Source of the DNA: Eubacterium sp.
GTDB lineage: Bacteria > Bacillota > Clostridia > Peptostreptococcales > Anaerovoracaceae
Assembly: GCA_017419895.1 (NCBI GenBank)
Contig: JAFOKI010000118.1
Coordinates: forward strand, 1-15,746
Direction of reading: 5' to 3'
Length of the DNA: 15,746 bases
The position numbers and the translations under genes were made by a program. The stretch's first letter is position 1. Every line of letters starts with the position of its first letter. Below are positions 1,867 to 15,183 of the stretch, piece by piece. The notes below the pieces were generated by a model that was given only the letters and a program-made list of their open reading frames with translations, searched no databases and was not told the DNA's origin.

Positions 1867-1898
1867 TTGACTTTTCAACGTTTTTACAGTAATATAAT
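1867..1898 (+). promoter_or_regulatory. strong sigma-A-like promoter of the structured RNA gene
   Basis: TTGACT (1867-1872) is followed by a 17-base spacer and TAATAT (1890-1895); an overlapping perfect TATAAT sits at 1893-1898 with 20-base spacing. Transcription should begin near 1902-1906, just before the first hairpins of the RNA. The strength of the boxes suggests an abundant transcript. Confidence 0.75.
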
Positions 1899-1902
1899 TG
1901 TA

Positions 1903-2341
1903 CAGACAGAGTGTTGAGAAAAACACATGGGGCGCGACCCCAAATCTGGAGGAAAGGAGTGATGCCGATATGGTAATCAAATGTTACGGACCGGGAGACA
2001 TATCAGGGCATGACTTCTCCTTCCGGGGGACAGATCGGTAGGATCGAACTCTAAGAGATCACTGAAGCGGCGAACGGCAAAGCCTGCCGCAGGACTGATC
2101 CGGTACCGACAGAGAGAACGGAAGGTACAGTGAGTCAGCCCGTAACAGAAGTTATCGTAATCTTGAGCGGAACCCGTGGATTTCACGAACGAGAGACAAT
2201 AAGGTCGGAAATACCGGATCGGACATACCGCAGTTGATATAGATCGTAAGACTAAATTGACATAGATGTACGATATGTAACCTGAATACAACTGAAGAAC
2301 TCAGTTTAAAACCGGCCGCGGGATGCGGCCGGTGTCTTTTT
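1903..2341 (+). ncRNA. large structured noncoding RNA (possibly raiA motif)
   Basis: About 440 bases run from a strong promoter to a strong terminator without a convincing ORF. They form many helices. Local hairpins are GTGTT/AACAC (1911-1926), GGGG-CGCGA-CCCC (1929-1941), GGAGA/TCTCC (1994-2020), GCGGC/GCCGC with inner GGC-AAA-GCC (2067-2090), GTACC/GGTAC (2103-2128), CGTG/CACG (2175-2187), ATCGTA/TACGAT (2243-2274) and AACTGA/TCAGTT (2290-2306). Long-range helices are 1965-1975 with 2212-2222 (ten of eleven pairs, one of them G-U) and GTTACGG 1983-1989 with CCGTAAC 2140-2146. It does not match tmRNA, RNase P, 6S or SRP RNA. The 5' GGGGCGCGACCCC hairpin and the following purine-rich stretch remind me of the clostridial raiA motif, but that identification is from memory, and no raiA or comF gene is adjacent. 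That it is a structured RNA is fairly sure; the class is not. Confidence 0.8.
2311..2341. terminator. bidirectional intrinsic terminator
   Basis: Perfect 9-bp stem ACCGGCCGC (2311-2319) with GCGGCCGGT (2325-2333) and a five-base loop. It is followed on the plus strand by GTCTTTTT, ending the structured RNA. On the minus strand it is followed by TTTT, so it can also stop transcripts arriving from the 2386-2883 gene. Confidence 0.88.
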
Positions 2342-13182: not shown

Positions 13183-13767
13183 TCATGTATATGTGCGTAT
13201 TATCTCTTCAGCGACTTCTTTCTTTCTGATGCATCTGTCCATCGCCTGCTTTTCGATGTATCTGTGCGCCTCCGGTTCTTCCATTTTAAGCTCCGAAATG
13301 AGAAGCCATTTGGCCCGGTTGACAAGGCGGATCTCCTCCATCTTTTCTTCAAAGGAGAGTGTTTTCTTTTCGATTTTCCTGAGATTCTCTCTGGCACTCG
13401 CAAGCCAGTCAAGCGCGATAGAAAGAGAAGAAACTGTAACGGGTTTAGAGAGGAGGAACACTCCGTTCGCGACTGCCTCGTCACGGATATCCTGCGCTGT
13501 CTCATCACGTACGAGAAGCAGAACAACTGTGTTTCTGGATTCCGCGATATTCAGAGCGAATTCGATTCCCGTGGCATCTTTCAAAGGCGAATTGATTATG
13601 ACATGGTCATAACTCCTGTCGCCCCATGCTCTCCGCGCCGCGTTTATACTCGTGACAAATCTTACCGGTTCAAAATGCGATTCCGGCAATAGAGAAGAAA
13701 GAGCCGTATTCATTTTTTCTGCCGCGGATACAACCAGGACGCTGTAGACCCGCTCTTTCATACTCAT
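13183..13767 (-). CDS. ANTAR-domain regulator with degenerate receiver, glnA-linked
   Basis: This 194-residue cytosolic protein has a CheY-like N-terminal domain (about 1-120), a helical linker, and a C-terminal ANTAR RNA-binding domain (about 133-190; RAKWLLISELKMEEPEAHRYI, then the AMDRCIRKKEVAEEII region). ANTAR proteins prevent premature transcription termination by binding paired hairpins in leader RNAs. The receiver keeps the late lysine (SKPV), but the N-terminal acidic pair is replaced (VVSAAEK) and Asn59 occupies the phosphoacceptor position, so phosphorylation by a histidine kinase is unlikely. ATG has GGAG four bases before. It lies 85 bases downstream of glnA on the same strand. 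The same arrangement is known in solventogenic clostridia (the glnA-linked NitR regulator), which supports nitrogen control as its role; the input signal here is unknown. Confidence 0.88.
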   Translation of the reverse strand: MSMKERVYSVLVVSAAEKMNTALSSLLPESHFEPVRFVTSINAARRAWGDRSYDHVIINSPLKDATGIEFALNIAESRNTVVLLLVRDETAQDIRDEAVANGVFLLSKPVTVSSLSIALDWLASARENLRKIEKKTLSFEEKMEEIRLVNRAKWLLISELKMEEPEAHRYIEKQAMDRCIRKKEVAEEIIRTYT

Positions 13768-13852
13768 TTGTCTCCGATACCCCTTTTAGACTTCAACAAA
13801 GCCTTTTGCCCGAAGCGCTTTTCCCTGCTTTTCTAAAAATCGTGCTGTTGTT

Positions 13853-15064
13853 TTACCGGTCGCAGTAGATCGCAAGGATCTCCTGAGGGATTATGCTTTT
13901 TATAAAATCACTCCCGCATGCAATCCTGCACGCATCCTCATAGCTCCCGGGAAGTCTCTTGTATTTTGCAAGGACATCCGGCGAAGCTTTGTAGAGATTT
14001 ATATCAGCCGGCGCCGGAAGGTCCGGATCGTTCTCGATCCCATCTAGCGCGGCATGTATCATCAGCGCGAACGCGAGATACGGGTTAGCCATCGGATCCG
14101 GCGATCTAAGCTCGGCTCTTCTGAATTCCCCGACAGCAGCCGGGATCCTTACGAGCTGTGAACGGTTCTCCGCTGACCATGTGATATACGCGGGAGCTTT
14201 GTTCATACCGAGTCTCGCATAAGAATTCTCGGACGGATTCAGGAACATCGTCATCACTTCCGCGTTTTTCAGGATACCGGCGATCATCTTGTGGAATACC
14301 GAATCATCGAATTCGCCTTTTACGGACATATTGATGTGGAATCCATTGCCGGGACTATTCTTTAACGGTTTTGCGGAAAAATCAGCCTTGAAACCGTTTT
14401 GCTGCGCAACTGTTCTGACGACACGCTGGAACATCATAGCGTTGTCAGCCGCAGTGAGAGCATCGGAATACCTGAAATCTATTTCATTCTGTCCCGGGCC
14501 TTCTTCGTGATGAGAGCTTTCCGGATATATCCCCATTTTTTCAAGAGTCAGGCAAATCTCACGGCGGACATTTTCTCCCCTGTCTTCAGGAGCTATATCC
14601 ATATACCCAGCACGATCACACGGCACGTCTGTCGGATCGCCGTTTTCATCCAGGCGGAAAAGGTAGAACTCCTGCTCAGCTCCGAATGTGAACTCGAATC
14701 CTGCATTTTCGGCTTTCGCGATCGCCATCTTGAGGATATTTCTTGTATCACCAACAAAAGGCGTCCCGTCCGGATACGTTATGCCCGAAAACATCTGCAC
14801 CACACGGCCGTGTTCCGGTCTCCACGGGAGTGGCATAAGAGTTTCCGGTTCCGGATGCAGCAGAAGATCACTGTGCGTCTCATCCCCGAACCCCGCCGTC
14901 GCTGAAGCATCGAACGCGATACCGTATTTAAAAGCGCGCGGAAGCTCATCCGGCATTATGGAAATATTCTTTTGTTTGCCAAAAACATCACAGAAGCCCA
15001 GGCGGATGAATTTTACATCTTCTTCCTGTGTAAACTGGATGACTTCTTCTTTTGAGTATTTCAT
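13853..15064 (-). CDS. glnA: type I glutamine synthetase
   Basis: This 403-residue enzyme makes glutamine from glutamate, ammonia and ATP in the cytoplasm. GAEQEF (about 128-133) and SHHEEGPGQNEIDFRY (about 184-199) carry metal ligands. GNGFHINMS (about 239) holds the catalytic-loop histidine region. NRSQLVRIP (about 300) and RSPDP (about 320) bind phosphate and substrate. It is somewhat shorter than the usual 440 or so residues but retains the conserved motifs. I choose ATG 15064, because GGAGG lies five bases upstream; a TTG at 15076 is in frame but would overlap that site. It follows dapL by 119 bases and precedes an ANTAR regulator, which suggests control by antitermination. Regulation by adenylylation is not indicated by anything here. 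Confidence 0.95.
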   Translation of the reverse strand: MKYSKEEVIQFTQEEDVKFIRLGFCDVFGKQKNISIMPDELPRAFKYGIAFDASATAGFGDETHSDLLLHPEPETLMPLPWRPEHGRVVQMFSGITYPDGTPFVGDTRNILKMAIAKAENAGFEFTFGAEQEFYLFRLDENGDPTDVPCDRAGYMDIAPEDRGENVRREICLTLEKMGIYPESSHHEEGPGQNEIDFRYSDALTAADNAMMFQRVVRTVAQQNGFKADFSAKPLKNSPGNGFHINMSVKGEFDDSVFHKMIAGILKNAEVMTMFLNPSENSYARLGMNKAPAYITWSAENRSQLVRIPAAVGEFRRAELRSPDPMANPYLAFALMIHAALDGIENDPDLPAPADINLYKASPDVLAKYKRLPGSYEDACRIACGSDFIKSIIPQEILAIYCDR

Positions 15065-15183
15065 GGCTGCCTCCAAATGATCACAACTGGATCAAGATCT
15101 GCGTTCCATTTCCTGCTTGCGGCTTTGCCATGCTTTGTCTGAGCACTTGCATCACCGCTTTATAACTTTATTATTATATCATA
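15065..15183 (-). promoter_or_regulatory. glnA leader: -10 box and structured segment
   Basis: On the minus strand TATAAT reads from 15178 to 15173 just after the dapL stop, but no good -35 box is visible. Downstream, GCGG (15119-15122) can pair with CCGC (15155-15158) and ATGC (15130-15133) with GCAT (15149-15152). A TGCT/AGCA pairing (15131-15134 with 15142-15145) competes with the latter. Nearer the gene, TGATC/GATCA forms a short hairpin. I could not recognise a canonical ANTAR dual hexaloop or a terminator here. Confidence 0.4.

Follow-up and report, generated by a model that had tools for sequence, protein, structure and literature searches.

A free-standing structured RNA of the Anaerovoracaceae, probably the message for a small peptide, in which one coding segment is complementary to two mutually exclusive partners

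What kind of gene lies at positions 1903-2341 of a 15,746-nucleotide stretch of Eubacterium sp. DNA (contig JAFOKI010000118.1, assembly GCA_017419895.1), and what would it produce? The original prediction, drawn from the sequence of this whole stretch (hereafter the window), described a free-standing large structured RNA gene with a strong promoter, a strong terminator, two long-range helices and no credible open reading frame (ORF), possibly the raiA RNA and alternatively an undescribed class. A free-standing structured RNA is supported by the analysis reported here, as is the undescribed class, and the RNA family is real and absent from Rfam 15. Judged by sequence comparison, this RNA appears to be coding and structured, both at once: it is a probable small-protein message, and the second half of its ORF is complementary to two other segments of the same transcript.

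Searched against Rfam 15 at the gathering cut-off, the window shows no family at the RNA, and the interval 1700-2400 on the RNA's strand yields no match even at an E value of 10. Five weak matches lie on the minus strand only, at 2304-2400, over terminator hairpins, and 20 relatives searched at E values up to 2 returned tRNAs and weak matches outside the RNA only. The two transcript boundaries that had been claimed are both visible in the window:

1867-1895, plus strand: promoter-like site, -35 TTGACT, 17 nt, -10 TAATAT, scoring 9/12
2311-2340, plus strand: strong intrinsic terminator, hairpin 2311-2333 plus T-run

From the position of the -10 element, transcription is expected to start near 1902-1903. 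The region 1903-2341 folds at -146.3 against -116.9 for shuffled sequences (z -5.1, beating 100 of 100 shuffles), and 350-nt folds of 23 sequences have a mean z-score of -3.1, below -2 in 17 and near zero in G002, G008 and G330. The best upstream hexamer pair within the 110 nt scanned scores at least 9/12 in 21 of 26 relatives and 8 in another four, in a scan run without a control; a simple scan places a terminator in 18 of the 26, and the predicted transcript spans 301-517 nt among the 18 relatives with both ends called. An own promoter and terminator with no co-transcribed larger gene, as expected of a coding small RNA (sRNA), are seen here by consensus scans, not in transcripts.

How widely is the RNA distributed? 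Partial blastn matches were found in 8 of 61 genomes, including the window's source genome (G000, 83.6% complete), and an exact pattern recovered the same 8 among 349 genomes of the family. A covariance model built from 8 sequences (R1) extended the search to other genera. With a second model built from 24 sequences (R2), 27 of the 349 family genomes matched at E values up to 0.01, and 26 were true on reading, distributed over genera g1 (13 of 17 genomes), g47 (4), g98 (6) and g94 (3). The RNA is known from four genera of one family, the Anaerovoracaceae. Weak R1 matches at E values up to 0.1 extend to 43 of 349 genomes, and those lacking R2 confirmation were mostly not read singly. An even draw of 297 genomes of the order gave 21 matches, 19 of them true and all inside the family, and neither this draw nor one of 391 genomes of the class contained a true match outside the family; these searches were filtered more strictly, so distant relatives may be missed. 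In the class draw, at E values up to 0.001, only G000 and a false match in G566 appeared. The latter was rejected as the start of another gene (presumably proC-like). Also rejected on reading were G357, a lipoprotein-like ORF and the one false match among the 27, and G384; these two account for the false matches in the order draw. Such false matches are drawn by the Shine-Dalgarno and start region, which is part of R1 and R2 alike. Searches of the literature on Anaerovoracaceae or Hornefia with noncoding RNA, and on bistable coding RNAs, returned nothing on point in the collection searched. Thousands of structured RNAs are reported to have been catalogued from human microbiomes (PMC8040213), and that catalogue could contain a fragment of this element.

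The claim that no credible ORF exists did not survive the comparison. The 5' third of the RNA carries the following:

1953-1959, plus strand: Shine-Dalgarno sequence AAAGGAG; GAAAGGAG is invariant in 8 sequences of the genus
1970-2041, plus strand: ORF of 23 codons, MVIKCYGPGDISGHDFSFRGTDR, from ATG at 1970 to a TAG stop; start and open frame are kept in relatives
1988-1999, plus strand: conserved codons for Gly-Pro-Gly-Asp, second codon positions invariant in 26/26

In each of the 26 relatives an AAGG-type Shine-Dalgarno sequence and a start codon (ATG in 23, TTG in 3) lead into an ORF 20-32 codons long. A start with 18 or more open codons behind it occurs in all 26 when the frame encoding [GS][PS]GD is examined, and in 1 and 0 of 26 for the other two frames. 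This count is partly one of choice, because three model matches were rejected for missing the core, although all 24 matches at E values of 2.1e-9 or better do carry it. Within the core codons, non-majority letters number 0 at second, 4 at first and 30 at third positions (30 of 34 at the third), and 27 of the 30 third-position changes are silent while 3 accompany a Gly-to-Ser change; this table is not independent evidence, because the expression that located the core already demanded [GS][PS]GD. In the peptide alignment the core lies near residue 8, usually preceded by a basic residue, with little else in common. Over its second half the peptide shows no conservation, because the coding strand there is also a structural strand. 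With a mean GRAVY of -0.42 over 22 sequences (-1.27 to 0.25), the peptides are on average hydrophilic, and six of them matched nothing in Pfam at E values up to 10. The original prediction had named a conserved translated protein as an outcome that would speak against it; as far as conservation shows, 72 bases within the 5' third encode such a protein, and the RNA structure is conserved too. Dismissing an ORF by its length is unsafe, as this RNA shows.

A DNA pattern shaped on the peptide, run over 84,980 species, hit 8 loci, 6 of which are the RNA element; the other two were rejected as chance, lying inside long unrelated ORFs of 492 and 449 residues, and viral contigs gave 0 matches. The 449-residue protein (L035, 640-1989, plus strand) holds the string GPGDIVGEMGLL. 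This string is reminiscent of cyclic-nucleotide-binding domains; the micropeptide core may resemble that turn, a likeness that Pfam did not support.

Why should the second half of such an ORF matter if its peptide varies? Three segments are involved:

1954-1973, plus strand: Y, the Shine-Dalgarno and start segment, which forms a start-masking hairpin with X (permutation test; minimum-energy fold of the window)
2006-2027, plus strand: X, latter half of the ORF, with complementarity to both Y and Z (permutation tests, window scan)
2119-2141, plus strand: Z, partner of X, the best one in 20 of 22 distinct sequences

X is taken as the part of the ORF that lies 18-40 nt on from where the core begins. 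The pairing of X with Z was examined with fixed windows, taking the ORF 20-50 nt after the core start against a downstream region at 110-190 nt. Cognate pairs among 21 distinct sequences sum to -619.2 kcal/mol, against -399.7 +/- 19.1 when permuted and -491.3 for the lowest of 20,000 permutations; a sequence's own partner ranks first in 14 of 21, and the window's own ranks 7. In a scan with 24-nt windows, X paired best with Z in 20 of 22 sequences, at 163-194 nt after the Shine-Dalgarno sequence in those 20, and Y ranked within the top two in 17 and the top three in 21. For seven control segments the best partners cluster in 5 to 11 of 22, compared with 20 for X, and the highest-clustering control adjoins Z. 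A local hairpin TTCTG-CTT-CAGAA inside X had been considered and was dropped in favour of the pairing with Z.

The pairing of X with Y is likewise stronger between cognate segments (sum -390.8 versus -295.0 +/- 13.5 permuted, lowest -352.4, n=22; own partner first in 6 of 22), and this holds when the genus (-211.3 versus -168.1, n=12) and the remaining genera (-179.5 versus -133.6, n=10) are considered separately. Against shuffled Y, X has a mean z of -3.19, with G015 as the exception at -0.53, and the bare Shine-Dalgarno segment finds its best partner inside X in 16 of 22 sequences and within the top two in 20. Since X is complementary to Y and to Z across the relatives, it has two conserved, mutually exclusive partners. 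Relative to the minimum-energy fold, holding the Shine-Dalgarno sequence unpaired costs 0.0-4.6 kcal/mol and holding Z unpaired 5.3-25.0 kcal/mol (22 of 22), in line with the X:Z rod as the end state, with the caveat that freeing Z forbids more bases than freeing the Shine-Dalgarno sequence (10 bases). Comparison among relatives is the basis for the ORF and for both pairings; when the window's own copy is folded by energy, the masked state is the favoured one.

Between X and Z lies a domain that could bring them together, and in the genus a further helix has its arms outside this interval:

2035-2109, plus strand: apical domain, helices 2035-2039/2105-2109 and 2041-2045/2097-2101, enclosing, with other elements, the hairpin 2067-2071/2086-2090 with 2076-2078/2082-2084 (covariation)
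1998-2004, plus strand: 5' arm of a closing helix (P1), pairing with 2272-2278 in the genus only
2272-2278, plus strand: 3' arm of P1 (permutation test)

The outer apical helices flank the stop codon and enclose two hairpins in most relatives. In an alignment of 24 rows (23 distinct) fitted with R1, 86.0% of cells are paired and 84 are double-change cells, against 27.7 +/- 5.2 in shuffled alignments and 12 to 24 with slid partners; this covariation leans to the model because the alignment was fitted to the structure. Both apical hairpins are missing from G005 and G010 in the model alignment. The hairpin-less forms in these two genomes (L058, L063) adjoin a tRNA cluster. P1 joins the 3' end to core codons in 10 of 11 genus sequences, with G015 unpaired, and is stronger than permuted (-158.2 versus -124.8 +/- 7.7; a fraction of 0.00005 of permutations as low; n=11) in a test with hand-set arms from which G002 and G003 were left out. 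As a family-wide helix P1 was rejected, since it is seen in the genus only. In the tests of P2 and P3 the 3' windows were placed with the cognate duplex and hence lean to pairing; the X:Z tests used fixed windows or a full scan instead.

The helices with comparative support are 2006-2025/2119-2141, 2035-2045/2097-2109 and, within the genus, 1998-2004/2272-2278. They are not the two long-range helices proposed originally, whose complementarity is present in the window and which were not confirmed as helices. The one at 1983-1989/2140-2146 shows no covariation (cognate -168.2, permuted -169.4 +/- 10.5, n=21); the other, 1965-1975/2212-2222, contains one non-pair (A.G), and its 3' arm falls in a gap region in several of the 7 other genus sequences. 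Both have a pair probability of 0.0 in the window's own ensemble, a measure that cannot choose between the helix sets because most comparatively supported helices also score 0.0; among the conserved ones only 2067-2071/2086-2090 is high, at 0.98-0.99.

What would such an arrangement do? We give about an even chance to the proposal that the RNA is a free-standing mRNA for a small peptide, the second half of whose ORF doubles as a structural switch that times its own translation. The transcript would be an mRNA of ~436 nt encoding a peptide of 20-32 residues with a [GS]-[PS]-G-D core. During transcription X would pair with the newly made Y, hiding the Shine-Dalgarno sequence and start codon; once Z had emerged, its start ~110-135 nt beyond that of X, the apical hairpin domain would bring X to Z, and the longer X:Z rod would displace the X:Y hairpin and release the Shine-Dalgarno sequence. 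Translation would then start on complete or nearly complete transcripts only, and ribosomes moving through the ORF would themselves pull the rod apart. Comparison supports the RNA family, the ORF, X:Y, X:Z and the apical helices; we infer that the region is transcribed, in which order the steps occur, that translation is affected and that the peptide is the product that matters.

Could the peptide be only one of two products? A dual-function RNA, in which the 3' part separately regulates other mRNAs by base pairing and the switch picks the job, is a possibility that we hold only tentatively. Its contacts would be recurrent 3' motifs outside the switch:

2151-2157, plus strand: GTTATCG motif immediately following Z; many relatives have similar motifs (read from alignments, without statistics)
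2237-2267, plus strand: two ATAGAT-type motifs near the 3' end (2237-2244 and 2261-2267), from alignments of relatives

The long structured 3' part and a layout resembling known coding sRNAs fit this idea as well, but the motifs have no statistical support, transcript length differs among relatives, and no target was found, none having been sought. Separately, readings of the whole RNA as one frameshifted protein, or of the 3' ATAGAT block as coding, were dropped by eye, as insertions and deletions break the frame between relatives.

The position of the apical domain behind the stop codon raises a further alternative, that it is an aptamer whose ligand decides between X:Y (off) and X:Z (on). 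The domain closes X to Z, its helices covary, the geometry is compatible, and short conserved unpaired stretches can be picked out in it by eye; against this, there is no clue to a ligand and no relation in Rfam, and G005 and G010 do without the two hairpins. We consider a ligand-sensing switch unlikely. The same low standing belongs to its more specific form, an inside-out riboswitch in which a sensor domain 3' of the stop codon would control the start of the preceding gene with the coding sequence as switching strand; if true, the same codons would be held by the peptide frame, the start-signal pairing and the sensor-flank pairing.

Type I toxin peptides are typically hydrophobic, and the present peptides, with their hydrophilic mean, do not have the hydrophobic, membrane-acting character expected if the RNA were a toxin mRNA. 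By that account a harmful peptide would be kept off during transcription by an anti-Shine-Dalgarno sequence in the ORF and an antisense RNA would silence the finished message. The distribution of the RNA is patchy, masking of the start by X:Y is indicated by comparison and energy, with G015 as an exception, and start masking by a downstream anti-Shine-Dalgarno sequence inside the ORF is reported for aapA3 (PMC6733600). The second conserved pairing frees the start rather than hiding it, however, and a consensus scan of the window found no minus-strand promoter-like site in 1921-2400, which leaves this explanation rather improbable.

That the RNA is plainly noncoding and its ORF an accident of conserved sequence could draw on the genus sequences, where some of the core stretch also pairs with the 3' end, but this is very improbable given the contrast between the reading frames and a third-position variation that extends to genera without comparable P1 pairing. 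A raiA (ModT) RNA displaced from its usual location, suggested by the shared bacterial class and the structured, free-standing character, is refuted for practical purposes: RF03072 has no match at the RNA and matches elsewhere in G000 (C148:6102-6267, 138.4 bits, cut-off 101.3), as well as in 81 of 99 relatives searched, including 16 of 17 genomes of the genus, so that the window's RNA is a second, different one.

Set against known systems, the proposed self-timed message most resembles coding structured RNAs, of which the family may be a variant with a conserved two-state fold that is new to Rfam 15. RNAIII of Staphylococcus aureus is described as a 514-nt RNA encoding the 26-residue delta-hemolysin, whose ORF overlaps a pairing sequence and whose peptide appears with delay (PMC4683094). 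Both RNAs are independent, structured and similar in length, and both have a short ORF in their 5' part; they differ in that no Rfam relation was found and that the present ORF has two conserved pairings which exclude each other. With aapA3/IsoA3 and hok the RNA shares a short-ORF message, and the aapA3 Shine-Dalgarno sequence is reported to be masked during transcription by an anti-Shine-Dalgarno sequence in the ORF; the finished aapA3 fold, however, is described as hiding the start until 3' trimming frees it (PMC6733600), whereas in the present RNA the start stays accessible once the later pairing forms, the peptides are hydrophilic on average and no antisense promoter was seen in the window. 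SR1/SR1P and VcdRP/VcdP are likewise reported as small RNAs with a small-protein ORF; here the structure overlaps the ORF, and the sequences were compared through the Rfam search only. The raiA RNA is described as structured, free-standing and clostridial (PMC11706538), yet it forms a separate family, and G000 carries both. The analysis adds an RNA family that appears both coding and structured and is absent from Rfam, documents across four genera one coding segment complementary to two mutually excluding segments, and brings out a conserved micro-peptide core, [GS][PS]GD, in this bacterial family. It would also offer a compact test case for an RNA that delays its own translation until complete.

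The leader of the window's RNA holds one further predicted feature:

1928-1942, plus strand: leader hairpin TGGGGCGCGACCCCA, between the transcription start and the Shine-Dalgarno sequence (energy fold)

This hairpin is absent in all 7 other genus sequences aligned. By eye, the leader 5' of the Shine-Dalgarno sequence in four g98 loci (L051, L052, L055 and L057) seems to hold an extra helix of ATACATTA with TAGTGTAT.

Does the RNA belong to its neighbours? Within ~6 kb of it at 21 loci, genes for an AEC-type permease (14), Mrp (11), a 4Fe-4S protein (8) and 5-formyltetrahydrofolate cyclo-ligase (6) recur, mostly upstream and on the opposite strand; these counts are minima because gene calling was crude. 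At 14 of 21 loci the nearest called ORF downstream runs on the opposite strand, and the 7 that share the RNA's orientation have no recurring family, so the RNA can hardly be the leader of another gene. The 4Fe-4S gene, which in G007 lies downstream of the RNA on the same strand, was matched in 16 of 25 genomes searched. In G006 and six g98 genomes the gene and its upstream side are present with no known RNA copy (a count that leaves out G338, whose contig ends at the gene), and a scan beside the gene with R2 and the peptide found no RNA in these 7; the element has therefore been lost or gained independently of that neighbour.

Several smaller observations concern the rest of the window. Just 3' of the RNA's own terminator, a second terminator-like hairpin at 2366-2385 adjoins a convergent gene. 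A 165-residue protein with paired cysteines is encoded at 2386-2883 on the minus strand and has no Pfam match; in G001, a 31% identical relative is encoded directly downstream of the RNA. An imperfect 24-base inverted repeat seen by eye (725-748 and 800-823) lies between the permease and mrp genes, which are convergent; not listed by a repeat finder with seed 9, it is single-copy in the genome and is probably a two-way terminator. At 13183-15076 on the minus strand an ANTAR response regulator adjoins glutamine synthetase, a familiar nitrogen-control pairing.
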